From Candidatus Peregrinibacteria bacterium (GTDB lineage: Bacteria > Patescibacteriota > Gracilibacteria > UBA1369), in contig JADLFY010000047.1 of NCBI GenBank assembly GCA_020849575.1, positions 1-14,832 on the forward strand: a stretch of 14,832 nucleotides of DNA. Reading direction: 5' to 3'. The position numbers were made by a program, and so were the translations under genes. Below the pieces are notes generated by a model. That model did not search any database. It was not told the origin of the DNA and was given only the letters and a program-made list of their open reading frames with translations. Shown piece after piece: positions 1 through 14,832 of this stretch. Position 1 is the stretch's first letter, and each line of letters opens with the position of its first letter.

Positions 1-300
1 GTGCGCATCATACCGGCCGACCTGGGCTGGAATGATATTGGTACCTGGGAATCAATTTGGAGTGAATTATCTGATGAAGAAGTCAGCACCGGCAATGTTC
101 ATAAAGGTCATGTCATTAGCCTTGATTCAAAAAATTCGCTGATTTATGCACCTCATAAAAAAGTTATAGCCACTATCGGACTGGAAGACATCATTGTAGT
201 CGATACTGAAGACGCTTTACTGGTTTGCAAAAAAGATCAAAGCCATAACATCAAAAAATTAATTGAAGAAATCAAAAATTCCCATCCCGAACTATTATGA
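1..300 (+). CDS. manC: Mannose-1-phosphate guanylyltransferase, C-terminal part (5' truncated by window)
   Basis: This is the tail of a nucleotidyltransferase that makes GDP-mannose from GTP and mannose-1-phosphate in the cytoplasm. The visible part begins with the family's substrate-site signature (PADLGWNDIGTWESI; the usual form is WsDiGtW). It continues with the alternating beta pattern that ends such enzymes: a gN.h.GhVi..dS.nsliy stretch, then a gLeDiivVdTeDalLVc motif and K-S-H-N-I-K. The GTG at base 1 is only a codon inside the gene, because the catalytic N-terminal Rossmann part (about 250 residues) lies upstream of the window. The stop overlaps the next gene by ATGA (297-300), so the two are translationally coupled. 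The next gene supplies the isomerase of the same pathway. Confidence is high for the family, lower for the exact sugar (a GDP-mannose versus other hexose-1-phosphate role). Confidence 0.88.
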   Translation: MRIIPADLGWNDIGTWESIWSELSDEEVSTGNVHKGHVISLDSKNSLIYAPHKKVIATIGLEDIIVVDTEDALLVCKKDQSHNIKKLIEEIKNSHPELL

Positions 301-719
301 ATGAACAATTACCCATCCAACAGGTACTCAAACCCTGGGGCAAAGAAATCTGGTTTGCCCAAACAGAAAATTATGCCGGCAAACTACTTTATGTAAATCA
401 GGGAGCCCGTCTTTCTCTGCAATATCATGAGAAAAAATCTGAAACCCAATATCTATTCAGCGGCAAAGTAAAATTAACTTTTGGACTCAAGGAAGATGAA
501 TTGCAAGAGATTATCTTAAATCCAGGTGACAAATTTGATATATATCCATATACTATCCACCGCGTAGAGGGCATTGAAGACTCCATCATCTTTGAAGTAT
601 CCACACCTGAACTGGACGATGTTGTAAAACTTGCTTATGACTATGGCAGATCAGGAAAAGGCAACAATTTTAAACTGGATGCCAAACTCGCCCAAAATAA
701 TAAATCAAATAACAATTAA
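297..719 (+). CDS. Cupin-type mannose-6-phosphate isomerase
   Basis: A 140-residue single-domain cupin matching the isomerase half of type II PMI/GMP enzymes, which interconverts fructose-6-phosphate and mannose-6-phosphate. It begins with the family signature K-P-W-G-K-E (12-17). The SLQYH stretch (Q42, H44) with E49 and later H88 are the expected metal ligands of the cupin barrel, and G77-D78 marks the strand turn before H88. The ending D-D-V-V-K-L-A-Y-D-Y-G-R (107-118) is the usual closing motif of sugar-phosphate cupins. In ManC/AlgA proteins this cupin is fused behind the guanylyltransferase; here the two are separate genes sharing ATGA. The start at 297 gives the overlap and the correct frame; an ATG at 301 is out of frame. 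A lysine-, asparagine-rich tail follows residue 118. Confidence 0.85.
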   Translation: MNEQLPIQQVLKPWGKEIWFAQTENYAGKLLYVNQGARLSLQYHEKKSETQYLFSGKVKLTFGLKEDELQEIILNPGDKFDIYPYTIHRVEGIEDSIIFEVSTPELDDVVKLAYDYGRSGKGNNFKLDAKLAQNNKSNNN

Positions 720-739
720 ATCAAAATAACTTTACCTTT

Positions 740-3700
740 ATGAGAAATAATCGCCTATTGCAGTCAGGACTAATTATACTGGTTGCTGTTCTACTTGGTT
801 TTTACAATCTCCCGGGGGAATTACAGAAACAGCTGCTCCCTTTCCTGCCCAAAGAAATTTATGAGCAAAAAGTAAATCTCGGACTTGATTTGCAGGGTGG
901 TTCACAACTCGACTATAAAGTGGATCTCAGAAATGTCCCTGAAAAAGACCGTTCAGCCATTGTGGAAGGTATTATTACAGTAATTCAGAAAAGAGTTAAC
1001 GGACTCGGTGTAGCTGAACCAAATATTTATCCATCACAGGTAGGTGAAGAAACCCATATTATAGTTGAACTTGCCGGTATCAAAGATCTCGACCAGGCCA
1101 AAGAAACCGTAGGTAAAACCATTCAATTGGAATTCAAAGAAAGACGAGACACTCCAGATCCTGCTTATGCCGAAGAAATCAAAACCAAAGCTGAAGCAGC
1201 TCTGGCAACAGCAAAAACTACTGAAGATTTCAACGTATTCGGTGAAGGCGAACAACAATCAAATCCTGGCAAAGTTTATTACAATGAAGTAAATGACTGG
1301 CAGTATAAAGAAGCCCTTCCAAACAGTCTCGCTGATACTCTCTTCACTCTGGAAAAAGGACAGGTATCAGACAAATTACTTGAATCAGACGGTGAATATG
1401 CATTGGATGCTACTGGCTCCGTAGTACAGATGAATGGTTATAACATTGTTAAATTAATCGACAAACAAACTGTCGATAAAGCCATCAATGAACCACGAAA
1501 AGTAAAAACTGCCCACATTCTGATTGCCTTCAAAGGCGCTTCAGGTGCTGATACCAAAGTAACCAGATCAGAAGAAGAAGCCAAACAGCTGGCTGATGAA
1601 ATTGTTAACAAATTAAAAGAAAATAAACCGGAAAATACTTTCGACAGTTTAGCCAAACAATATTCAGATGATTCAAGTAACAAAGATCAGGGAGGTGTCA
1701 TCGACACCTATATCGCTGCTGATGATAAACAATTTGCCAGTGAATATGTCAAAGCTGCCAATGAGATAACCAGAATAGGCGATGTAAGTGCTCCTATCAA
1801 ATCACCTTTTGGTTATCACCTGATTAAATTATTGGAAATCAAAGAACCAGTAAACACCACTGAAAAAGCCGATCAGATCAAATACGCCCGACTTTTCTAT
1901 AACAACGTTGACGATCAATGGCAGGCCACTGAACTAAACGGTAAATATTTCCAAAGAGCTGAAGTACAATTCGATCAGCTCTATCAACCTCACGTGGCTA
2001 TTTCTTTCAATTCAGAAGGTGCCAAATTATTTGAAGATTTAACCGGCAAAAATATCAATAAACCGCTGGCCATCTTCGTAGGCGGCAACCTCATCTCTGC
2101 TCCTAATGTAAATCAAAAAATCGTTGGTGGAACAGCCGTTATCACCGGACAATTCACCATCAAAGAAGCTGAAGAATTAGCCCGCGACCTGAATACTGGT
2201 GCTATCCCTGCTCCTATTCTGCTGGTTGGCCAATACAATATCGGTGCTTCACTTGGTCAAAACGCTCTCGACAGTTCTCTCTGGGCCGGACTTATTGGCT
2301 TTGGTATCATCGCTCTGTTCATGATTTTCTATTATCGATTGGCTGGTTTCATCGCCACCATAGCCTTGGCTATTTATACAGCAATTCTGATCTTCCTGAT
2401 CAAATGTTCACTGCCACTGCCATTATCATTGGGTATTTCTGTAGCAATTTTTGGCTATATCGTTTATCGGGTTCTCAACAGCAAAGAATCAGGCCCGGAA
2501 AAATTAATTGCCCTGGTACTCAGCTGTTTCATTCTCTTCTTCGTTTCCTTCCTACTCTCCACTTCCATTGTCATGACACTTGCAGGTGTAGCCGGTGTAA
2601 TCCTTTCTATCGGTATGGCTGTTGACGCCAATATTCTGATTTTTGAGAGAATTAAAGAAGAACTCCGTGATGGCCGTCCAGTTGATTCAGCCGTTACCGT
2701 AGGTTTCGATCGTGCCTGGAATTCCATCAAAGACTCTAATTTCTCATCTCTAATTACCTGTGCCATTCTGTTCTACTTTGGCAGCTCGATCATTCAGGGA
2801 TTTGCCTTCAACCTGGCTGCCGGTATTTTGGTATCAATGTTCTCAGCTATTTCAGTTACCAGAGTTCTCCTCTCTGTAACCATGAACAGTAAACTTGGTA
2901 ATATCAAAGGTTTCTTTGGCCGTCCAAAACGTAAATCAGATAAATTGCTCCCTGTCATTCAGAATCGTGCAATTCTCTACGGAATATCCGTTGTAACGGT
3001 TGTTCTCTCTATCATTGCTTTATTCACTTTCGGTCTGAAACCAAGCTTGGATTTCACAGGTGGTAGCTTGATGGAACTCAAATTCGCTAATCAAATCTCT
3101 TCAGAAGATCTGAATAAGAGCATTCATGAAATCGAAGAAGAAATTAACAAAGCACGCAACCTTACTCCGTTTACAGAAACAACATCTGCCAACACTACTC
3201 CAACCGCTAATTCCACTGATCCAAAGCAACCAGTAGTCAGCTCGGAAACAAGCAAACTTGACCTTGGGACAATTCATATCGTTTCTACTGGTGAGACCTT
3301 TATCATCAAATCCAGAGATATTTCTGCTGAAGATCATGATTTGATTTTAAAAGATCTCAGAGCCAAACATGGTGATTTGGAAGAAAAGCGTTTCCAATCA
3401 GTTGGACCAACTATCGGCGAATCTCTGCGTAACAGAGCCTTTATTGCCATTGTATTTGCTTCCATTGCCATCATTCTCTACATCGCTTTTGCTTTCCGCA
3501 AAGTGCCAGCCTCAGTAGGCAAATGGAAATTCGGCGTCTCCGCTATTATCGCTTTATTACATGATACAGTAGTTTTAATCGGTATTTACGTTGTACTCGG
3601 ATTGACCATGGGCCTGGAAATCGACGCACTCTTTATCACAGCCATTTTGACCGTTATGGGCTTCTCAGTTCATGACACCATCGTAGTACTGGATAGATTA

Positions 3701-3967
3701 CGTGAAAAACTCCGCTCTCCGGCCAAAGATAAAACTTTCAGCGAATTAACCAATGAAGCCGTCAATGAAACTCTGGCCCGTTCTATCAACACCTCATTGA
3801 CAGCCGCTCTGGCCCTTTTGGCTCTCGTTCTCTTTGGACCAGAATCAATCAAAGGTTTCAACCTGGCACTCTTAATCGGTCTTATCGTCGGTACTTACTC
3901 CTCTATTTTCATCGCTTCCCCAATACTGGTTGACTGGTACAATAAAGCTCACAGCAAGAAATCCTAA
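740..3967 (+). CDS. secDF: SecDF fusion protein with parvulin (PpiC-type) insertion in the SecD P1 region
   Basis: A 1075-residue single chain combining SecD and SecF, the proton-driven accessory of SecYEG that pulls exported proteins out of the channel. SecD half: N-terminal helix (8-24), D-L-Q-G-G (50-54), P1 strands up to LEFKERR (130-136), then a foreign block (137-393), P1 resumes at W394 with VAISFNSEGAKLF, A-S-L-G (503-506), helices from 515, and the VDAN motif (628-631) before FERIKEEL. SecF half: D-F-T-G-G (771-775), VGPTIGESL (888-896) and VHDTIVVLDRLRE with H978-D979. The foreign block includes a parvulin domain (about 254-367; AHILI 258-262, YSDD 308-311, GG 318-319, FGYHLIKL 357-364), placed outside the cytoplasm by P1 topology. 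Two extra hydrophobic segments (563-579, 589-609) lie between SecD helices 3 and 4, and a Thr/Ser-rich loop (809-839) interrupts the SecF extracytoplasmic domain. No Shine-Dalgarno is seen 20 bases after the cupin gene. A terminator follows the stop. Confidence 0.95.
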   Translation: MRNNRLLQSGLIILVAVLLGFYNLPGELQKQLLPFLPKEIYEQKVNLGLDLQGGSQLDYKVDLRNVPEKDRSAIVEGIITVIQKRVNGLGVAEPNIYPSQVGEETHIIVELAGIKDLDQAKETVGKTIQLEFKERRDTPDPAYAEEIKTKAEAALATAKTTEDFNVFGEGEQQSNPGKVYYNEVNDWQYKEALPNSLADTLFTLEKGQVSDKLLESDGEYALDATGSVVQMNGYNIVKLIDKQTVDKAINEPRKVKTAHILIAFKGASGADTKVTRSEEEAKQLADEIVNKLKENKPENTFDSLAKQYSDDSSNKDQGGVIDTYIAADDKQFASEYVKAANEITRIGDVSAPIKSPFGYHLIKLLEIKEPVNTTEKADQIKYARLFYNNVDDQWQATELNGKYFQRAEVQFDQLYQPHVAISFNSEGAKLFEDLTGKNINKPLAIFVGGNLISAPNVNQKIVGGTAVITGQFTIKEAEELARDLNTGAIPAPILLVGQYNIGASLGQNALDSSLWAGLIGFGIIALFMIFYYRLAGFIATIALAIYTAILIFLIKCSLPLPLSLGISVAIFGYIVYRVLNSKESGPEKLIALVLSCFILFFVSFLLSTSIVMTLAGVAGVILSIGMAVDANILIFERIKEELRDGRPVDSAVTVGFDRAWNSIKDSNFSSLITCAILFYFGSSIIQGFAFNLAAGILVSMFSAISVTRVLLSVTMNSKLGNIKGFFGRPKRKSDKLLPVIQNRAILYGISVVTVVLSIIALFTFGLKPSLDFTGGSLMELKFANQISSEDLNKSIHEIEEEINKARNLTPFTETTSANTTPTANSTDPKQPVVSSETSKLDLGTIHIVSTGETFIIKSRDISAEDHDLILKDLRAKHGDLEEKRFQSVGPTIGESLRNRAFIAIVFASIAIILYIAFAFRKVPASVGKWKFGVSAIIALLHDTVVLIGIYVVLGLTMGLEIDALFITAILTVMGFSVHDTIVVLDRLREKLRSPAKDKTFSELTNEAVNETLARSINTSLTAALALLALVLFGPESIKGFNLALLIGLIVGTYSSIFIASPILVDWYNKAHSKKS

Positions 3968-3985
3968 ATCCTCAATTATTCAAGT

Positions 3986-4015
3986 AAAAAGCCCCGCCGA
4001 ATGGCGGGCTTTTTT
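3986..4015 (+). terminator. Intrinsic terminator after secDF
   Basis: An 8-base-pair GC-rich stem, AGCCC(C)GCC (3990-3998) with GGCGGGCT (4003-4010), has one bulged C, a GAAT loop and a run of Ts (4010-4015). Five As (3986-3990) precede the stem, so it could also stop transcription from the other side. It starts 18 bases after the secDF stop and separates that operon from the tRNA promoter. Confidence 0.9.
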
Positions 4016-4028
4016 GTACTTTTTTATG

Positions 4029-4057
4029 GTGACAAATATCACTCAATCGGCTACTAT
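4029..4057 (+). promoter_or_regulatory. Candidate promoter of tRNA-Arg and the VKOR operon
   Basis: A GTGACA box (4029-4034, five of six consensus bases) lies 17 bases before TACTAT (4052-4057, four of six). Transcription would begin near 4064, about five bases before the tRNA. The placement just after a terminator and just before a tRNA supports the call; it rests on motif and spacing only. Confidence 0.5.
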
Positions 4058-4068
4058 ATCGCTGCTTT

Positions 4069-4145
4069 GCGCCGTTAGCTCAGCTGGATAGAGCATCGGT
4101 CTTCGGAACCGAGGGTCGGGGGTTCGAACCCCTCACGGCGCACCA
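4069..4145 (+). tRNA. tRNA-Arg, anticodon UCG, CCA encoded
   Basis: A complete cloverleaf can be folded by eye. The acceptor stem GCGCCGT (4069-4075) pairs with ACGGCGC (4135-4141), followed by discriminator A4142 and an encoded CCA (4143-4145). The D arm is GCTC/GAGC. The anticodon stem TCGGT/ACCGA encloses the loop CTTCGGA, whose middle triplet TCG reads CGA-family arginine codons. The T arm is GGGGG-TTCGAAC-CCCTC with one G-U pair. It lies between a promoter-like site and the VKOR gene, which starts only 17 bases after the CCA; no terminator lies between them, so the tRNA may be cut from a longer transcript. Confidence 0.97.
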
Positions 4146-4162
4146 AATTAAACAAATATCAC

Positions 4163-4594
4163 ATGACCGATCCATACGCCGCAACCATTTATGCCTTACT
4201 TTTTACCCTGGCCGCCTTTGGTATAAGTGAAACAACTTATTTGATCAGAAAAAGAAAAGCTTCCGAACATCCTGTCTGTATTATCGGTAAAGGCTGTACA
4301 AAAGTTTTAGACAGCAAATACAATAAACTGTTTGGCCTCGTCCATAATGATATTATGGGATTATTATTTTATCTTTCTGTTTCAGTTATTTCGGCCTTTT
4401 TTGTATTGGAAATTCAACCTCTGGAAATCTGGGGAATCATCCTGAAATTAATGGTTGGTATTGGTATTCTACTTTCTTCTTATTTCTTTTATCTCCAGTG
4501 GAAAGTAATTAAAGCCTGGTGTTTCTGGTGTTTGGCCTCAGCCGGCACAGTACTCACCATGGCCATTATCATTTTATTTAGCGGAGTATTCTAA
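4163..4594 (+). CDS. Vitamin K epoxide reductase (VKOR) family membrane protein
   Basis: A 143-residue polytopic membrane protein of the bacterial VKOR family, which re-oxidises a DsbA-like thiol oxidase using quinone and so drives disulfide bond formation outside the cytoplasm. The two required cysteine pairs are visible: C39 and C45 in the loop after the first helix (followed by S51-K-Y and L-F-G as in the family), and the quinone-proximal C120-F-W-C123 near the fourth helix. Hydrophobic segments lie at about 5-27, 64-84, 89-112 and 121-141. The length matches single-domain VKORs; no fused thioredoxin domain is present and no DsbA-like partner is encoded in this window. The start lies 17 bases after the tRNA, with no Shine-Dalgarno. 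It precedes the DoxX-like gene by five bases. Confidence 0.9.
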   Translation: MTDPYAATIYALLFTLAAFGISETTYLIRKRKASEHPVCIIGKGCTKVLDSKYNKLFGLVHNDIMGLLFYLSVSVISAFFVLEIQPLEIWGIILKLMVGIGILLSSYFFYLQWKVIKAWCFWCLASAGTVLTMAIIILFSGVF

Positions 4595-4599
4595 AATCT

Positions 4600-4956
4600 A
4601 TGAAACATTATAGTTATCACATTCTGAGAGTAGGTCTGGGCATTACTTTTTTGTGGATAGGTATACTTATCCTGCAAAATCCAGCTTTATGGTTCAGTAG
4701 TATGCTGCCCTGGGCTCAAAATGCTTTTGGACAATTTCAGCACCCGATTATGTATGCTGTAGCCGGTTTGGATTTATTGGTGGGCTTATTACTTTTGGTA
4801 GATGCTTTTTTATGGCTGGTAGCCTTAATCGGTATAATTCATCTTATTACCGCTTTGGTAGCCAGTGGTATCAATGCCACCACTGTTCATGATCTGGCCC
4901 TGATAGCAGCACTAATGACCATTTACCTGGAAAGTAAATCCAATAAATATTTCTAA
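4600..4956 (+). CDS. DoxX-like four-helix membrane protein
   Basis: A 118-residue hydrophobic protein with the DoxX/DoxD-like pattern: an N-terminal L-R-V-G-L-G-I-T-F-L-W-I-G helix (about 8-26), a W-rich loop, a conserved AGLDLLVGLLLL helix (54-65), a third helix ending near S89, and a final helix introduced by H-D-L-A-L (96-100). Members sit in the cytoplasmic membrane; some are linked to quinone or redox chemistry, but the biochemical role of this subfamily is not established. It sits directly between the VKOR gene (five bases upstream) and a MazG-like gene (one base downstream), which fits a membrane redox association but does not prove it. GGAG at 4583-4586 is 13 bases from the ATG, too far for a normal ribosome site. 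Confidence 0.75.
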   Translation: MKHYSYHILRVGLGITFLWIGILILQNPALWFSSMLPWAQNAFGQFQHPIMYAVAGLDLLVGLLLLVDAFLWLVALIGIIHLITALVASGINATTVHDLALIAALMTIYLESKSNKYF

Positions 4957-4957
4957 T

Positions 4958-5284
4958 ATGTCCAAACTCCATTTAAAAGCCAACCCAACTCTTCAGGATT
5001 ATCAGCAGTATGTGCGCGATATGATAGAAGAAAGAGGTTTCAAAGACGAAACCATTCAGGATTTACTGATGCTTTTGATGGAAGAATGTGGAGAATTGGC
5101 TCGAGCCTGTCGTAAATACACCAGCATAAAATCTGATGCCAATCGTGAACAGCAGGAAAATCTCCAACATGAATTGGCCGATATATTGATGTATGTTTTT
5201 GCCATTGCCAACAAATATCAGCTGGACCTGGAAAAGGCTTTTCGGGATAAGGAAGAAATCAACAAACAGAGAATCTGGAAATAA
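4958..5284 (+). CDS. MazG-like nucleotide pyrophosphohydrolase
   Basis: A 108-residue all-alpha protein of the MazG/dUTPase superfamily, which hydrolyses nucleoside triphosphates to monophosphates and pyrophosphate, often for clearing damaged or non-canonical nucleotides. The metal-binding helices are clear: E42-E43-C-G-E46-L-A-R and, after a charged loop, E72-L-A-D75-I-L, giving the ExxE...ExxD arrangement. One domain only, so it resembles the short house-cleaning form rather than the two-domain MazG. The exact nucleotide cannot be read from sequence. Its start is one base past the DoxX-like stop. Its stop (5282-5284) is immediately followed by the stop of the opposite-strand RDD gene, with no intergenic base. 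Confidence 0.87.
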   Translation: MSKLHLKANPTLQDYQQYVRDMIEERGFKDETIQDLLMLLMEECGELARACRKYTSIKSDANREQQENLQHELADILMYVFAIANKYQLDLEKAFRDKEEINKQRIWK

Positions 5285-5746
5285 TTATTTCTTCATAATC
5301 ACAAAAGTTTTGGTCAGTTTGTCATGCAAACCCTGCTTTTTCGGTGTAAACAAAATCGGCAAAAATCCCAGTCCCAAAATAATTCCCGATAACATATAGG
5401 CAAAAGTCCGAAAAATTGCCACAAACCAGGAAATACTTTTACCATTGGCATCAGCAACCTTGGTTTTCATGAGCATCATACCAAAAGTCCTGGAAATCAG
5501 CCCTTGCATTACGATGAGATAAAGCATCGGAAATACCCAGAACATTATTCCATCCAAAGTCATAAAATAACCCGGCAATTCAGCAAAGTTTCCAGCAGAC
5601 AAAAGATAAAATAATCTGACACTTCCTGGTAAAATCAGTAATAAAATCAAATTAACAATCAGCATATCCACAACCAATGCGCCCACACGTTTATACCATT
5701 TGGCATATTGGAAATTATTGGTAGAAACTCTTATTTCTGCAGTCAT
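5285..5746 (-). CDS. RDD family membrane protein
   Basis: A 153-residue integral membrane protein with the RDD family layout: K19-R20 and D27 in the first helix (RVGALVVDMLI), a second helix around 66-83, the T87-F-G-M (T.GK-like) segment with the V-A-D-A-N-G-K (97-103) turn, an R113-containing third helix (111-133), and the ending Q138-G-L-H-D-K-L-T-K-T. Family members are of unknown or varied function; some have been tied to ion transport or membrane stress, which cannot be assumed here. It is transcribed alone on the minus strand. Its stop abuts the MazG-like stop. No convincing minus-strand promoter or Shine-Dalgarno is seen in the 78-base gap before the divergent gene at 5825. Confidence 0.83.
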   Translation of the reverse strand: MTAEIRVSTNNFQYAKWYKRVGALVVDMLIVNLILLLILPGSVRLFYLLSAGNFAELPGYFMTLDGIMFWVFPMLYLIVMQGLISRTFGMMLMKTKVADANGKSISWFVAIFRTFAYMLSGIILGLGFLPILFTPKKQGLHDKLTKTFVIMKK

Positions 5747-5772
5747 AATAAAAAGTTAAATTTTCTTTTGCA

Positions 5773-5800
5773 TTTACTTTAGCAAAAAATCTCTTAGAAT
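5773..5800 (+). promoter_or_regulatory. Possible promoter for the small gene at 5825
   Basis: TTTACT (5773-5778, four of six consensus bases) is followed after 16 bases by TAGAAT (5795-5800, five of six). Transcription would start near 5807, leaving an untranslated leader of about 18 bases. In such AT-rich DNA chance matches are common, so this is tentative. Confidence 0.33.
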
Positions 5801-5824
5801 TAAAACAAATCCTAGCAAGTAAAT

Positions 5825-6130
5825 ATGTCTGGCGAATACATACAGTCAAACAGCATCAAAGACTACTGGAAACAATTGAAAGCTTTTTATTTGGCTTCCA
5901 GCCCTGTTTTTGAAAAAATCACTGCCAAAAAATACCGGGCCATCGAGAGGAGTGAACGGGAAGACAGTGATAATCACCTTAATCACGAAAGACTTGGCGA
6001 AGATACCCAGGCTGTAGATATAGCTTTTTATAAATATTTACCGGAAAGCCGCATCGCCTATCGGGTGCATATAGTAGATGTTAATGGCCAAAAACAGGAT
6101 CACTACTTCATCGTTAAGAGCTTCGCTTAA
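5825..6130 (+). CDS. Hypothetical small soluble protein
   Basis: A 101-residue protein of no recognised family. It has no signal peptide, membrane segment, cysteine or repeat. The first half looks helical and charged (Y-W-K-Q-L-K near 14-19; an acidic-basic run R-S-E-R-E-D-S-D-N at 42-50). The second half looks beta-rich, ending I-A-Y-R-V-H-I-V-D-V-N-G-Q-K. Evidence that it is a gene: its own candidate promoter, an ATG in a sensible position, ordinary codon use, and no competing frame. It runs 17 bases into the 3' end of tlyA on the opposite strand (6114-6130). Function unknown; a homolog search would be needed to say whether it is lineage-specific. Confidence 0.65.
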   Translation: MSGEYIQSNSIKDYWKQLKAFYLASSPVFEKITAKKYRAIERSEREDSDNHLNHERLGEDTQAVDIAFYKYLPESRIAYRVHIVDVNGQKQDHYFIVKSFA

Positions 6131-6830
6131 TTAACCACAGAAATTCCTGATTCCCTTCTTTGCCTTTAACGGCTGAAGGCATTTCCTGCTGTATTTCAAA
6201 ATCAGCATCCAAAAAAGCCTGACGTACTTTGGTCAGAATTTTATTAAGAATTTTTTGATCAATAATTACTCCATCATGCCTGGCTCCAACTTCAAATTGA
6301 GGTTTAATCAAAGCAATAATTTCCGATTCCCTGTCAGTTATTCTAAGCAAAGCCGGAATCAAAAGTGTAATGGAAATAAAAGACACATCAATCACAATCA
6401 AATCCAACTTCTCTTCAAAGTCTGTTTTCTGCAAATTTCTGGCATCAGTGAAATTCCGAAAAATAATTTTTTGCTGATTAACAAGTTCAGAGGCCAATTG
6501 GCCTTCTCCAACATCGACTTCATAAATTTTTTGCGCACCTTTTTGCAAAAGCAAATCAGTAAAACCGCCAGTCGCAACACCAATATCCAGACAGACTTTT
6601 CCTTTCACCTCAATTTTAAATTTTTGCAAAGCAGATTCCAATTTCAAAGCAGCACGACTAACATAACCAAAATCCTCAACCAATACTTCCACCTTTTCTC
6701 CGGTCAAATCAAAAGATGGTCTGGTTTTGATTTTTCCTTCGACTAAAACCTGACCATTACGAATAGCTTCTTGAGCACGATCTCTGCTGCGAAAAAATCC
6801 TTTTTTTACTAAATAAATATCTAGTCTCAT
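6114..6830 (-). CDS. tlyA: TlyA-family rRNA 2'-O-methyltransferase
   Basis: A 238-residue protein with an N-terminal S4 RNA-binding domain (about 1-50; RLDIYLVKKG, S15-R-D-R-A, I-R-N-G-Q-V-L-V-E-G) and an FtsJ-like SAM methyltransferase domain. Characterised homologs methylate ribose 2'-OH groups of rRNA (16S C1409 and/or 23S C1920 in mycobacteria). The SAM loop is C-L-D-I-G-V-A-T-G-G-F-T-D (80-92), and D106 lies where the SAM ribose is bound. The expected K-D-K-E catalytic set is complete: K63 (in SRAALKLE), D148 (VIDVSF), K176 (IKPQFE) and E229 (NQEFLWLI). Older annotations call it hemolysin A. Short type I/II assignment cannot be made safely. Its ATG directly follows the stop of the upstream gene with no gap, and its 3' end overlaps the convergent gene by 17 bases. 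Confidence 0.93.
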   Translation of the reverse strand: MRLDIYLVKKGFFRSRDRAQEAIRNGQVLVEGKIKTRPSFDLTGEKVEVLVEDFGYVSRAALKLESALQKFKIEVKGKVCLDIGVATGGFTDLLLQKGAQKIYEVDVGEGQLASELVNQQKIIFRNFTDARNLQKTDFEEKLDLIVIDVSFISITLLIPALLRITDRESEIIALIKPQFEVGARHDGVIIDQKILNKILTKVRQAFLDADFEIQQEMPSAVKGKEGNQEFLWLIKRSS

Positions 6831-7298
6831 TTATATTTCGCTACTGTTCCCAGAAGAATTTTTTCTGAGTTTATCAGTATTGAGCATACTATTGGCAAAA
6901 AATTTCTCCAAAATCAAATTATTCAATTTCTCATCCACCTTTTTTTCCAAAAAATACAAATTCAGCAAATCCAAAGCCTCCAACCAGATCGAATCATATT
7001 TTTCTGATTTAAGTCCGAGCATTGGACGCAAATGTTCACCTTTCCCATCCAAAATCATTTTGAGGAAAAAAGCTTTATTTCTACGAATACATTCCAGCAA
7101 AGCCTTCTTTTCCACTATCAAAAAATCAAAAAGCAGCTTTCTCTGAAAATCATTAAAGAGTCTCAGTTTCAAAGCCAAACCATCAAATCCATCACTCAGA
7201 TACTGCTCAACCAGAGCCTCACCAGCAGTTTTAAACAAAACATCCATTTGGCTTTTTAGAGCCGTTTTTTCACTTTGATAAGAGTAATTATTATTCAT
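6831..7298 (-). CDS. Hypothetical helical protein upstream of tlyA
   Basis: A 155-residue protein of no recognised family, rich in leucine, lysine and phenylalanine and predicted by eye to be almost all helical, with no membrane segment. Notable stretches are LVEQYLSDGFDGLALKLRLF, E-K-K-A-L-L-E-C-I-R-R-N-K-A-F-F and the polar tail R-K-N-S-S-G-N-S-S-E-I. The frame stays open back to an ATG at 7409, but I chose the ATG at 7298: a TTGACA-17-TAAATT promoter at 7346-7318 lies inside the longer version and would start RNA near 7311. The extra 37 residues would also cover the divergent promoter region. It is followed at once by tlyA (TAA then ATG, no gap), so the two form a small operon. Function unknown. 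Confidence 0.62.
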   Translation of the reverse strand: MNNNYSYQSEKTALKSQMDVLFKTAGEALVEQYLSDGFDGLALKLRLFNDFQRKLLFDFLIVEKKALLECIRRNKAFFLKMILDGKGEHLRPMLGLKSEKYDSIWLEALDLLNLYFLEKKVDEKLNNLILEKFFANSMLNTDKLRKNSSGNSSEI

Positions 7299-7317
7299 AA
7301 ATTTTTCAAAAGGACTT

Positions 7318-7346
7318 AATTTACAACAAACCAAGCCAATTGTCAA
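7318..7346 (-). promoter_or_regulatory. Candidate promoter for the minus-strand tlyA operon
   Basis: Read on the minus strand, a perfect TTGACA (7346-7341) is followed after exactly 17 bases by TAAATT (7323-7318, four of six). The RNA start would fall near 7311, giving a very short leader before the ATG at 7298. This site is the main reason for preferring that start. Confidence 0.52.
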
Positions 7347-7393
7347 TAAATTAACCCTTAAATACAGTTCTTTTCTATCAAAAATGCTAAAAT
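7340..7393 (+). promoter_or_regulatory. Candidate promoter(s) of the priA-trpS-pyrG operon
   Basis: Two plus-strand options are seen. First, TTGTCA (7340-7345, five of six) with TACAGT (7363-7368, four of six) at 17-base spacing. Second, an extended -10, TGCTAAAAT (7385-7393), with no good -35, starting RNA near 7400. The first -35 box overlaps the minus-strand TTGACA base for base, so the divergent operons would compete for polymerase. Confidence 0.4.
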
Positions 7394-7414
7394 TAACCAA
7401 ATCCACCAAGCATC

Positions 7415-7810
7415 ATGAATCAGCAAAAACACCATCATCACCATTCCACAGATCAACATTCACGCCCCCACCCTCTGACCCAGTTTTTTGGCTGCTGTTT
7501 AGGTGATGAACCCACCCCTCTCTCTCCCAAAATCCAGAAAATCCGTGAACAATTAAATGATTCATCAGTTGAAGAAATCGCTGCCAACTCAGCAACTCTG
7601 AAAATCACCAGTGACATGATAGTGGGAGATATTCTGATCAATTTTCCTCATACCAGAACCTATCTGGAAGATTTGCATCCACTGGCTCTTCTTTCACCGC
7701 AATTAAACAGTATTACTCTGGAAATGTTTTTCAGTGATCAAAAAGTTGATCTGGAAAAGATTTGTCAGGATTTATCAGATTTAATCAGCGTTAAACCAAT
7801 TACTTCATGA
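7415..7810 (+). CDS. DUF1858-like protein with histidine-rich N-terminus
   Basis: A 131-residue soluble protein. Residues 62-124 resemble the DUF1858/ScdA N-terminal-like helical domain: ITSDMIVGDIL (64-74), a central LHPLALLSP loop (87-95), then T-L-E-M-F-F, V-D-L-E-K-I-C-Q-D-L (111-120). The cysteine motif usually present in the central loop of that family is absent here. The N-terminus is unusual: five consecutive histidines (6-10), H15, H19 and a Cys pair C27-C28, a plausible metal-binding tail. Residues 35-58 form a linker helix. It is the first gene of the operon, after a candidate promoter, and overlaps priA by ATGA (7807-7810), so the two are likely coupled. Known DUF1858 proteins are often linked to iron-sulfur or nitrosative-stress functions; a role here is not established. 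Confidence 0.6.
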   Translation: MNQQKHHHHHSTDQHSRPHPLTQFFGCCLGDEPTPLSPKIQKIREQLNDSSVEEIAANSATLKITSDMIVGDILINFPHTRTYLEDLHPLALLSPQLNSITLEMFFSDQKVDLEKICQDLSDLISVKPITS

Positions 7811-9836
7811 AACAACTTTACGCTGAAATACTTTTTCCCAGAAAAATTTTCGATCAGCAAACCACTCTTACCTACTCTATTCCCAAAGATGCTGAGATTA
7901 GAACAGGTTTAATGGCAGAAGTTAATTTACGCGGCAAAACCACCCGCGGTCTGATCTGGAAAATCCATGATCAGGAACCAAAGTTCAAAACCAAACCATT
8001 GGAAAAAATTCTCCATGGCAGCATCAGTCTTTCCCCAACTCAACTAAAATTACTGGAATTCATTTCTGAATATTATTTCTGCCCAGCCTATAAAGCACTC
8101 AAATTATTTTTCCCGGCCATTTTCTTCAGCAGAAAAAAAGGCCTGACTTTGGAACCGCTTGAGTCAGTCAGACAAACAGCACCTCTCAAAGAACTTTTTC
8201 CCTTAACTGAAGATCAAAAAAAAGCTCTGGAACAAATCAACAATTCTGCCAAAAACACTATTCTTTTGCATGGTATAACCGGCTCAGGCAAAACCGAAAT
8301 TTACCGCAGACTGACACTTCCTCTGGTGGAAAATGGCCAGCAGGTATTAATACTGGTCCCCGAAATTTCTCTCACTCCTCAGACAGTTCAAAATTTTCAA
8401 AAACAATTTGGCAAAAATATTGCCATCATTCATTCACGACTTACTCCAAAGAAAAAACTGGATTATCTGGCTGGCATTTATCAGCAAAAGTATCAGATAG
8501 TAATCGGCTCTAGGTCAGCCATCTTCAGTCCTTTCCAGAAACTGGGACTGATTATTATCGATGAAGAACATGAAGACTCCTACAAACAGGATCAGGCTCC
8601 CCGCTATCATGCACGCGACCTGGCCGAAAAAATTCTTCAGCTAGAAAATAATCCCCATCTCAAACTCATTCTCGGCTCAGCTACTCCTTCCATTGAAACT
8701 TTTTTTCAGGCTGAACAAAAAAATTATCAACTGGTAGAATTACCAAAACGACTGCCCATTGAAGAAAAAGCTCATCCTTTGCCGACCATCCATCTGATCG
8801 ATTTGCGTGAGGAATTAAAGAAAAAAAATCTCTCCATTTTCAGTGAGTTACTTCAGGTTAAAATGACTGAACGCCTTCAAAAGAAAGAACAAATTATTAT
8901 TTTCTTAAACCGTCGCGGAGCCGCTTCCGCTTTGCTTTGCCGCGATTGCGGCCACACCGAAACCTGTCCTGACTGCGAGGTTTCACTGACCTATCACAAT
9001 CGTCTGAACATTGAAGGAAGTTATCTCCCAGCCGAAAGACTGATTTGCCATCAGTGCGGGAAAATCTATCGTTTACCTACAAACTGTAGCAATTGTCAGG
9101 GAACACGGATCAAATATATTGGTCTGGGCACGCAAAAAATCGAAGAAGAATTACAAAAACTTTTCCCTGCTGCCAAAATACTTCGGGCCGATCGGGATAC
9201 CACCAAAACCCAGGACGATTTCGAAAATCTCTATCAAACTTTCCGGGACAGTCAGGCCGACATATTGATCGGCACCCAAATGATTGGCAAAGGTCTTCAT
9301 TTACCCAATGTTACCCTGGTAGGAATAGTTTTAGCCGATACCAGTTTAACCATCCCCGATTTCCGTTCCGCCGAAAAAACTTTTCAATTACTCACCCAAG
9401 TGAGCGGCCGTTCCGGCCGCTCCAAACCCGGTGAAGTCGTTATACAAACCTATTCCCCCGAAAATTACGCCATTCAAAACACTCTCAAACAGGATTTTCA
9501 CAACTTTTATCAGACAGAAATTCAGGAACGCCAGCATCACGGTTTACCACCCTTTCAAAAACTGATTAAATTAACCATTGAAGATGAAGACAAAGAAAAA
9601 GCTTTTTTGATCAGTCATCAACTTCACCAGGATTTGGAAAAATTTCTAGAGCAAGATCAGCAGCAGAATGTCAGCTCAATCAATGTTTATCCTGCCCTGA
9701 TTCCCAGGCTTAAAAAGAAATTCCGCTGGCAAATCCTCATCAGCGGAACAAATCCCCGCAAATTTTTTCAACAGTTTTGCTTAGCAAAGCCATTCAAAAA
9801 TGATATAAAGATTGACGTAGACCCATTAAACACTAT

Positions 9837-9840
<4 letters not shown>
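7807..9840 (+). CDS. priA: Primosomal protein N' (PriA), replication restart helicase
   Basis: A 677-residue superfamily 2 DNA helicase that recognises stalled or repaired forks and reloads the replisome in the cytoplasm. The N-terminal 3'-DNA-binding domain (about 1-100) is followed by a winged-helix-like linker, then helicase lobe 1 with Walker A G-I-T-G-S-G-K162-T-E (156-164), PEISLTPQ, and Walker B D252-E-E-H255. An inserted zinc module holds eight cysteines in four pairs (C378/381, C387/390, C414/417, C427/430), all present. Lobe 2 contains GTQMIGKGLHLPNVTLVG and motif VI Q531-V-S-G-R-S-G-R538; the family norm is GRAGR. The C-terminal domain includes RQHHGLPPF. At 677 residues it is somewhat shorter than E. 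coli PriA (732). Both ends overlap neighbours by ATGA. Confidence 0.97.
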
Positions 9841-12496
<2,656 letters not shown>

Positions 12497-12501
12497 TCTT
12501 A

Positions 12502-13905
12502 ATGCCCCAATTTTCTTACACTGTCATCAGTAAAGATAATCGCCAACTGGCGGGCACTATTGAAGCACAGGATGAACAGGCAGCCAGACAGGAATTAAAT
12601 GCCCTGGGTTTTTCCGTATTGAGTCTGGTACAAGGAGCATTAACCGAACCCACAGAACAGCAAAATGCTGAACTCATCGAAGATATCAAGAAATTCGAGT
12701 TTTCCGCCTATGATAAAAATGCCAAAAAAATTGTCGGTACCATACAGGGCAAAGACATTTATGAAGTTTTTCGGCGTTTGATTTATGAATTCCAATTTGA
12801 TGTACAGTCTCTTTACCCGGAAAATCTTTCAGCAGGCGACAAAGAAAAAGCCGAGTTAAAGGGTATTGATTACCTCAAAGATCGTCTTCTGGAAGAAGAA
12901 ATGGCCGCCAAGGTCGCTCAGGAAAAACAGGCCATGGATGAAAAAGAATTTCAGGAAAGACAAGCTATGCTCAAAGGACAGGTGGATTTTGTTTTACAAA
13001 AAGTAAATTCCACCCTCGACACCTATAGAGATGAGCTGGATCCTCCACGCAAAGCCAAAATAAAATATTTCGTGGAAAAAATTCTGCGCATCAAAAATAG
13101 TACCAATCTGGATTATATTCGTGGAACCTGTGAAGAACTGCTGACTTATCTGCAGAAAGAAGAACTATTCCTCAACGAACAGTCTAAGCTCAAAGAAAAA
13201 ACCCAATTAACCATCGAAGCCAAAAGCATGATGATGGAATTGAGCCGCATCGCCAAACCTCAACAGAAAGATCTCTTCGATGATTTAAGAGAATGGCGTA
13301 AAGAACATATTATTGAAAATAACAATCCCGGCCTTTTCGAAACAACAATCAATCTTTTGATTACTCCACTGATTGGACCTGCACAGGAAGATCCGGAAAT
13401 AATTACTGCCAGAGAGAAACTCAAATCTTCAAAAGGCCAGTTCAACCAATTCCTGAGACTTTATTTCCAGTCCTCCGAACCAGAATACAAAAAAGAAATT
13501 CAATCCACCCTGAAAAGACTTTGGGGTGAAATCAAAATAGATAAAACCAATCTGAAAAAAATTATTGAACAGAAACATCATGAGAGATTGGCCAATATCG
13601 AATACACTTCAACCGAAACCCTGGCTAAAGAAATTTTTGGCGTAGCAGGCTGGGTACTGACTTTCTACATTATTTACTACTTCGCCACTATTTATTTAAA
13701 CTCCAAACAAATCGACTTTATTCCGGAAACCAAATTAAATAATCTTTTTCAGACCTCCATTATCAAATACTTCTTTACCACGCTTTTCCTGATGGTCTGC
13801 TTCCTGGGGATCAAAATAGAATTCTTTCGCCGAAAACCCGCTGCCACACCAATTTTATTCTTTGTTTTTCTGATCTCATCTAGTCTTATTATCCTCAATT
13901 TCTAA
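12502..13905 (+). CDS. Membrane protein of unknown function with two GspF/PilC N-terminal-like repeats
   Basis: A 467-residue protein I cannot assign to a named family. Residues 2-45 resemble the first, soluble segment of type II secretion/type IV pilus GspF/PilC proteins (F-S-Y near 4-6, GTIEAQDEQAARQELNALGF at 18-37). A second copy follows at about 63-106 (FEFSAYD, GTIQGKD, then FDVQSL), in register with a 61-residue period. The rest differs from GspF: long charged, mostly helical and probably coiled-coil stretches (about 120-370), then three likely membrane helices (about 378-400, 422-441, 451-466). The T2SSF transmembrane domain is missing. It could be an adaptor or scaffold docking to a membrane machine, but this is conjecture. 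It lies five bases after pyrG and shares one base (TAATG) with the Lgt-like gene. No Shine-Dalgarno; the leader is A-rich. Confidence 0.8.
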   Translation: MPQFSYTVISKDNRQLAGTIEAQDEQAARQELNALGFSVLSLVQGALTEPTEQQNAELIEDIKKFEFSAYDKNAKKIVGTIQGKDIYEVFRRLIYEFQFDVQSLYPENLSAGDKEKAELKGIDYLKDRLLEEEMAAKVAQEKQAMDEKEFQERQAMLKGQVDFVLQKVNSTLDTYRDELDPPRKAKIKYFVEKILRIKNSTNLDYIRGTCEELLTYLQKEELFLNEQSKLKEKTQLTIEAKSMMMELSRIAKPQQKDLFDDLREWRKEHIIENNNPGLFETTINLLITPLIGPAQEDPEIITAREKLKSSKGQFNQFLRLYFQSSEPEYKKEIQSTLKRLWGEIKIDKTNLKKIIEQKHHERLANIEYTSTETLAKEIFGVAGWVLTFYIIYYFATIYLNSKQIDFIPETKLNNLFQTSIIKYFFTTLFLMVCFLGIKIEFFRRKPAATPILFFVFLISSSLIILNF

Positions 13906-14696
13906 TGTATCCAATTCTACTTCAAATCGGGCCCGCTACTATTTACTCACTTTGGGTTTTCCTGGCCCTGGGTATCTTTGTTTCCCTGCTCATTGTCAAC
14001 AAACTGGCCAAGTCACGATTGATTAAACTGGCTTTCCTGGCCGAAAACAGTTTACTGATTTTCCTCTGTGGTTTAATTGCCGCCCGCCTTACTTTCATTG
14101 CCTACAATTTCGCTTATTACTGGAATATCGTTGTGGATCAGGGCCATATCATAGAAATATTTTATATATGGGACAAAGGACTGTCTTCCTGGGGTGGCCT
14201 GGCCGGAATATTCCTGAGCCTGTATTTACTCTCCAAAAATTCCAAAGAAGATTACAAAGCCTGGAGCGATATTTTGGTAGTCAGTGTGGCTTTCGCCATG
14301 TTTTTCATCAATATAGGAGCCTTTTTGGATGGCCGAAATTACGGCAATCCAACCGAATTGCCCTGGGGTATTTTGGTTGAATCTTCCCAATACGCCATCC
14401 CCATTCATCCCGTACAAATCTACGCTGCCATTTATTGTGGACTAATTGGCCTAATTCTGCTCCAGTTATTTAATAAAAAAGCCTTCAAAACTCCTGGTAT
14501 AATCAGCCTTTCCGGCATATTTCTATACTCATTTTTCCGCTTTATAGAGGAGTTTATGCGTGGTGACGAGACTATATATATACTGGATGTACTCCGCGAA
14601 GCTCAGATCTATGTTTTGATTACCCTTTTACTTAGTGGCTATTTGTTGTATAAATACTTTAAGAAGTATTTAAAAGAACATCATAGTTTATGGTAA
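13905..14696 (+). CDS. lgt: Lgt-like prolipoprotein diacylglyceryl transferase homolog with altered active-site residues
   Basis: A 263-residue polytopic membrane protein clearly related to Lgt, which moves a diacylglyceryl group from phosphatidylglycerol onto the lipobox cysteine of prolipoproteins. Family features: IGPATIYSLW start (8-17), GLIAARL (56-62), WDKGLSSWGGLAG (89-101), FLDGRNYGNPTELPWGI (140-156), H168-P-V-Q-I-Y173, and R212-F-I-E-E216-F-M-R-G-D. About seven hydrophobic helices are seen. By eye alignment to E. coli Lgt, G147, R212 and E216 match G154, R239 and E243. However, Tyr26 appears as L16, His103 as W96, Arg143 as N136 and Asn146 as A139. So it may be a divergent Lgt clade or a catalytically changed relative. 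No lipoprotein with an obvious lipobox is encoded in this window. It overlaps its neighbours on both sides. Confidence 0.85.
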   Translation: MYPILLQIGPATIYSLWVFLALGIFVSLLIVNKLAKSRLIKLAFLAENSLLIFLCGLIAARLTFIAYNFAYYWNIVVDQGHIIEIFYIWDKGLSSWGGLAGIFLSLYLLSKNSKEDYKAWSDILVVSVAFAMFFINIGAFLDGRNYGNPTELPWGILVESSQYAIPIHPVQIYAAIYCGLIGLILLQLFNKKAFKTPGIISLSGIFLYSFFRFIEEFMRGDETIYILDVLREAQIYVLITLLLSGYLLYKYFKKYLKEHHSLW

Positions 14697-14832
14697 ATCA
14701 AATTATAGCAGTATTGGATTATTTTTTCAGCTTCAATCCTGGTTCGGTTTTCCCCATGCAAAACATTTTATGGGAACTAATTGGCTTTTCCATTTTAATA
14801 GCCCTGCTGGTTTATTTGAAAATTAAGCGAAA
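14690..14832 (+). CDS. Small membrane protein, 3' end outside window
   Basis: An open frame from ATG 14690 runs to the window edge with 47 complete codons and no stop. It overlaps the Lgt-like stop by seven bases, in keeping with the coupled style of this operon. The visible part has an amphipathic start (MVNQIIAVLDYFFSF), a short N-P-G-S-V-F-P-M-Q-N loop, one clear membrane helix (W28-E-L-I-G-F-S-I-L-I-A-L-L-V-Y) and a basic end (K-I-K-R-K). This pattern suggests a helix with its C-terminal side in the cytoplasm, followed by a domain beyond the window. No family can be named from this fragment. Confidence 0.6.
   Translation, partial: MVNQIIAVLDYFFSFNPGSVFPMQNILWELIGFSILIALLVYLKIKR

Follow-up and report, generated by a model that had tools for sequence, protein, structure and literature searches.

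Among the systems closest to the one described here are parvulin proteins that are separate from the SecDF translocation motor. In the excerpted text of PMC9987972, SurA binds the holo-translocon and AlphaFold places its two parvulin domains on the head of the P1 domain of SecDF, a domain believed to contact polypeptide and to shift as protons are transported; SurA (1m5y, 4g2p) is a chaperone separate from SecDF and has an N/C core of its own (PMC8669966, in excerpt). The PrsA foldase (4wo7, 6vj4) is, in partial descriptions, a separate lipoprotein whose host domain is SurA-like rather than SecD P1. PpiD, considered with YfgM, resembles the present case in being a parvulin protein associated with SecYEG (excerpts of PMC9643414), but it is a separate single-transmembrane protein whose parvulin is catalytically inactive (excerpts of PMC9797188). 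Here we describe parvulin units nested inside P1 of SecDF itself, encoded by the secDF fusion gene of a 14,832-nucleotide stretch from a Candidatus Peregrinibacteria bacterium (contig JADLFY010000047.1, positions 1 to 14,832 of the forward strand; hereafter the window).

The chains of Thermus thermophilus SecDF (3aqp, 5xan, 5yhf) comprise 719-734 residues, whereas in the window's protein some 250 additional residues separate the P1 base from the head. The flanks of this insert are SecD P1 rather than a SurA-type N/C core, which places the protein outside the SurA/PrsA group. SecD and parvulin domains are each known; of their nested, partly permuted union within a translocation motor, no description was found in the titles, abstract openings and passages surveyed among open-licence PMC papers.

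The parvulin insert in P1 of SecDF

On the 1075-amino-acid (aa) product the Pfam matches follow one another as SecD_1st (76-135), Rotamase_3 (234-367), Rotamase (259-364), P1_head (397-491) and two SecD_SecF_C stretches. SecD_1st, the P1 head and both SecD_SecF_C stretches exceed their curated cut-offs, as do TIGR01129 and TIGR00966, and the protein is thus a member of the SecD/SecDF family, from which proton-driven stimulation of export is predicted for it. The predicted model has the SecDF fold; when the full-length model was compared with structures (VIA-align), the 50 rows listed contained only SecDF and other RND-type transporters, a result that says nothing on the insert. The insert as a whole spans residues ~137 to ~390, and W394, just beyond it, is invariant across an 88-row alignment (A1).

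The inner unit of the insert is a canonical parvulin with an intact His/Asp/His site. The Rotamase_3 match (E = 1.3e-22) reaches 81 bits against a cut-off of 22.5, and residues 250-367 taken alone (window 1487-1840) score 83.3 bits, far beyond chance. The preliminary description of this locus had proposed a parvulin within the extracytoplasmic P1 domain, and the profile search it suggested bears this out, with SecD_1st and P1_head on either side; the motifs it cited are all present (AHILI 258-262, FDSLA 301-305, YSDD 308-311, GG 318-319, FGYHLIKL 357-364, and W394). Structure prediction, which it had set beforehand as the test able to overturn the proposal, gives this block a parvulin fold. 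Residues H259, D311 and H360 align with the His/residue 113/His site of Pin1 (which we take to be His59, residue 113 and His157 in Pin1 numbering), and the aligned Pin1 chain has Asp at the middle position. Across the 74 top-ranking rows from the search for homologues, the window's own among them, these positions are His in 72, Asp in 69 and His in 74.

In two respects the preliminary description has to be amended. The canonical block does lie between the P1 strand LEFKERR (130-136) and W394, but it does not adjoin LEFKERR, from which ~113 residues separate it; and rather than a single built-in parvulin, P1 holds two units, of which the outer is degenerate and has probably undergone circular permutation. 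The intervening residues match Rotamase_2 (E = 0.0014) and Rotamase (E = 0.002) weakly; since the corresponding scores of 19.5-19.9 bits fall below the curated cut-offs of 21.7 and 27, we class the outer unit as parvulin-like. In the model its elements follow a parvulin-like order (helices 141-160, 164-174 and 195-203; strands 179-189, 214-222 and 228-251), and SurA superposes on both units. The outer unit would run from alpha1 to beta4, with N235 (GYN, 233-235) in place of the second catalytic histidine, a column that reads N in 25/74, Y in 17/74 and His in only 2/74 rows; the histidine of the HIL motif is replaced by R384 (alignment A2), so that neither catalytic histidine is retained.

Distribution and circular permutation among relatives

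SecD-parvulin is widespread in Patescibacteria, and the survey called for by the preliminary description gives its extent. In an even draw of genomes across the phylum, 184/379 had a Rotamase match, including 35 of the 37 drawn from the window's class (the window's own among them). We examined the loci of the 34 remaining class genomes that had a match, together with 27 of the 29 genomes outside the class whose match, among those listed, fell in an open reading frame (ORF) of at least 560 aa: the SecD base, parvulin and P1 head lie in one ORF in 61/61, with the same junction. A wider sample of the class had a parvulin in 37/60 genomes; 38 of its 42 matches fall in 36 ORFs of at least 543 aa, and all 21 of those opened are SecD. 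The other four matches lie in small ORFs, namely one lipobox protein that has the two parvulin units but lacks a P1 match by our own profiles (L198), two parvulin-only ORFs (L199, L200) and one with a P1-head match only (L201). Families free of matches include TGA-recoded ones. Named carriers are found in Gracilibacteria, a Parcubacteria group bacterium, Magasanikbacteria, Uhrbacteria, Komeilibacteria, Kuenenbacteria, Altimarinota and Peregrinibacteria. Database labels assign some carriers to other taxa (Pseudomonadota, P0046; Xanthomonadaceae, P0214), which we take as binning labels. A scan of named genomes gave 6 SecD-parvulins among the best 80 of 388 relatives and is uninformative on absence outside Patescibacteria.

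Many relatives have a single parvulin. A query with such a single-type SecD, mostly 540-640 aa long, returned 6036 proteins at E ≤ 0.001, and precomputed Pfam annotation places SecD and Rotamase domains in all of the best 120 of them. In single-type SecDs the order of elements departs from the canonical one: LEFKE leads through alpha1 to beta4 (GFHIIK), which is followed by xHILI and, after that, by the W..T.L.G strand of SecD (alignment A2). Three of the 120 are double-type, with two units; in the other 117 the HIL motif, which carries the first catalytic histidine, follows beta4 in 116 and precedes alpha1 in none, while G-x-H is present in 117/117. In each of 11 single-type loci a canonical-parvulin profile matches the tail with its own N-terminal positions, although the pieces score only -1.5 to 7.4 bits. 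When the tail is moved to the front the score rises above that of the core alone in 11/11 (by 0.5 to 9.8 bits), and the match then starts at profile position 9-20 and ends at 118-124 in all of them. With the shorter tail, rotated sequences outscored all 100 shuffles in 7/11, and in the other four 1, 15, 25 and 69 of 100 shuffles scored equally high; an earlier rotation with a long tail had beaten 20 shuffles in 2/11 only. We take the single-type SecDs to carry a circularly permuted parvulin, whose ends would lie in the beta1-alpha1 loop.

The same displaced position can be recognized in the window's double-type protein, where it is filled by KYARLFYN within a long modelled strand (371-388); three other double-type SecDs (L071, L073, L094) still have a HI[LQ] motif there. 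Rotation of the window's own locus scored 12.2 against a shuffled maximum of 10.9, and strands 371-388 and 228-251, both long in the model, are candidate beta1/beta4 partners. We propose that strand 371-388 completes the outer permuted unit as the degenerate counterpart of the SHILIK strand of single-parvulin SecDs. On the simplest reading, which the alignment and the modelled strand pattern both fit, the outer unit would be an old permuted parvulin, mostly dead, with the inner canonical one inserted between its beta4 and its displaced beta1. Tandem duplication and a second insertion were compared as origins of the pair in a tree of parvulin units built on 77 of 118 rows, after the stand-alone parvulins had been thinned from 104 rows to 33. 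It joins the non-Gracilibacteria outer units with two single-type rows at a support of only 57/80 and the non-Gracilibacteria inner units in one group at 98/53; FastTree on all 118 rows groups the single units with the outer ones, in a cluster that also takes in 8 further rows, of which 7 are stand-alone parvulins. The tree does not separate the two histories.

Two genomes (L038, L081) have an ORF of 479 or 491 codons in which a remnant of the P1 base, the two parvulin units and the P1 head follow one another as in the window's protein; this ORF starts with a lipobox close to its N-terminus, however, and lacks the transmembrane motor. In family f9, P1-head-only lipoproteins adjoin secD. P1-head-only proteins of 221-321 aa were seen beside secD in L048 (2792-3466), L049, L050, L052-L054, L056, L058 and L063; 9 of 11 such ORFs match a lipobox pattern, which points to a P1 domain of SecD that has become a free-standing lipoprotein.

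Proposed role of the insert at the Sec exit

We consider it probable that the protein is a SecDF motor whose P1 domain holds a nested parvulin pair at the base-head junction, with the inner unit acting as a built-in foldase. Of this picture, the domain content, predicted fold, conservation, distribution and the permuted order in single-domain relatives are shown directly. We infer isomerase activity, substrate hand-over and coupling to the motor from the fact that the protein holds covalently, at P1, parvulin domains like those that SurA docks there. By analogy with the SecDF fold the parvulins should lie on the outer face, where a polypeptide leaving SecY would meet P1; the inner parvulin would bind the emerging chain and isomerise its Xaa-Pro bonds while P1 moves through its proton-driven cycle. 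One chain would then do the job of SurA, which docks on SecDF P1, or of PrsA, a separate lipoprotein.

Several observations weigh against a built-in foldase of this kind. Three of 36 SecDs from the window's class, Gracilibacteria, all belonging to one genus (G064, G078, G342), have both histidines replaced (R or N, and N) with the domain retained; the 36 comprise the window's SecD, those of 34 sampled relatives and that of the named L092. The pattern of the first-histidine motif was found in 31/36, L092 missing it by having HALI, and in L062 the motif was not found. The parvulin-negative members of the class (21 of 24 genomes scanned, of which 17 gave a P1 head match, 12 of those read with table 25) have a base-head gap of 105-315 aa in 17/17, filled by inserts without a recognisable active parvulin; a profile of the ten shorter inserts resembles the outer unit, with an hhalign probability of 95% in a single comparison, against 79% to stand-alone parvulins and 32% to the inner unit. 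In the rotation test with the long tail only 2/57 double-type sequences beat 20 shuffles, that of the window's own locus being one of them. The window's assembly also has a gene for a cyclophilin whose signal is of the lipoprotein type (LTGC; G000:C61:207-665, L197 192-1025, minus strand). From described systems, excerpts of PMC12445088 report that active-site mutations of PrsA hardly affect secretion in B. subtilis, and the parvulin of PpiD is inactive (PMC9797188, as excerpted).

Some of these points suit a different role, in which the insert serves to hold substrate as a chaperone or offers a surface for docking, its fold binding unfolded chains and its isomerase activity incidental or dispensable. 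The degenerate outer unit, the loss of both inner histidines in one genus, the non-catalytic inserts retained in several families and the partly described precedents of PrsA, PpiD and SurA all agree with it, and the P1-parvulin lipoproteins are compatible as well. Yet mere binding would not need the near-invariance of His/Asp/His elsewhere, nor a G-x-H in every single-type sequence, and we regard this role as unlikely. That the insert is a spacer, or a peptidoglycan or partner contact that alters the reach of P1 and has little to do with substrate, seems very improbable: inserts of widely differing size do occur at this junction, from the 105-315 aa of parvulin-negative class members to roughly 350 aa, flanks counted, in family f9, but the active-site conservation and the detached P1-parvulin lipoproteins speak otherwise. 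So do the parvulin-free SecDs of Patescibacteria outside the class, where the gap is 5-15 aa in six of seven measurable cases and 65 aa in the seventh, indicating that SecD itself does not need a long insert. An assembly chimera might be suspected in a fragmented assembly (143 contigs, 53% complete), and the preliminary description had raised mis-joined reads; this we rule out, because the region 130-400 is matched over its full length, at 34-69% identity, by 61 further protein clusters (P0002-P0062), and the opened relatives share the junction.

Returning to the built-in foldase, a broader and more tentative reading, about which we are rather doubtful, joins these results. In much of Patescibacteria SecD might be a translocating foldase: a permuted parvulin would have grown into the base-head hinge of P1, placing an active site at the hinge with its cycle driven by proton-powered P1; a canonical parvulin would later have nested inside and taken over catalysis; and the detached P1-parvulin lipoproteins would be foldases akin to PrsA, a family that arose from a subunit of the motor.

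Gene neighbourhood and implications

Features of the secDF gene in the window, with the evidence for each
Feature	Position	Strand	Evidence
SecDF fusion gene	740..3967	+	intact ORF, 1075 aa
First part of the SecD P1 base (SecD_1st, aa 76-135; its end lies inside LEFKERR)	965..1144	+	Pfam, E 6.2e-16
Outer degenerate parvulin-like unit (aa ~136-251)	1145..1492	+	weak Pfam match, column counts, model helix/strand order, SurA superposed on both units
Inner canonical parvulin domain (aa 252-367)	1493..1840	+	Pfam Rotamase_3
Catalytic His259	1514..1516	+	Pin1 alignment; His in 72/74
Catalytic-site Asp311	1670..1672	+	Pin1 alignment; Asp in 69/74
Catalytic His360	1817..1819	+	Pin1 alignment; His in 74/74
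Long strand aa 371-388, including KYARLFYN (381-388)	1850..1903	+	DSSP strand in models; alignment A2; rotated score
SecD P1 head (aa 390-492, including W394)	1907..2215	+	Pfam P1_head 397-491
SecD and SecF transmembrane halves with SecF extracytoplasmic domain	2216..3949	+	Pfam/TIGR profiles and model

Directly upstream of secDF lies a gene for a mannose-6-phosphate-isomerase-like cupin (297-719), homologues of which occur in 16 fetched loci (L001 included), each with a SecDF or SecD-parvulin gene. Just downstream, beyond a tRNA-Arg (4069-4145), a VKOR-family gene (4163-4594; E = 1.5e-21) encodes a likely disulphide-forming enzyme. Coupling to disulphide formation through this neighbour is unsupported: phmmer with VKOR or DoxX found no homologues in the fetched loci, whose flanks extend a few kb at most and none of which held the window's VKOR as a positive control. 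A 467-aa protein adjoining lgt (12502-13905) has no Pfam match at E = 0.01. The window's assembly has an FKBP match in a 447-aa ORF, which would be of trigger-factor size; together with the lipobox cyclophilin it rules out the SecDF parvulin as the cell's only peptidyl-prolyl isomerase. Another membrane machine with a parvulin is seen in P0115 (1043 aa; source name dolichyl-diphosphooligosaccharide--protein glycosyltransferase), which is of the oligosaccharyltransferase type and contains Rotamase domains.

How folding factors take over the exported chain at the Sec exit is still unclear, as said for SurA in excerpts of PMC9987972. Where SecDF P1 touches parvulin domains in E. coli, the partners are separate proteins, and the detail of their contact comes from models only. 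With P1 and parvulin in one polypeptide here, the geometry of the hand-over becomes solvable and the role of isomerisation testable by point mutation. The family also shows how a membrane motor can take up an enzyme domain in circularly permuted form.
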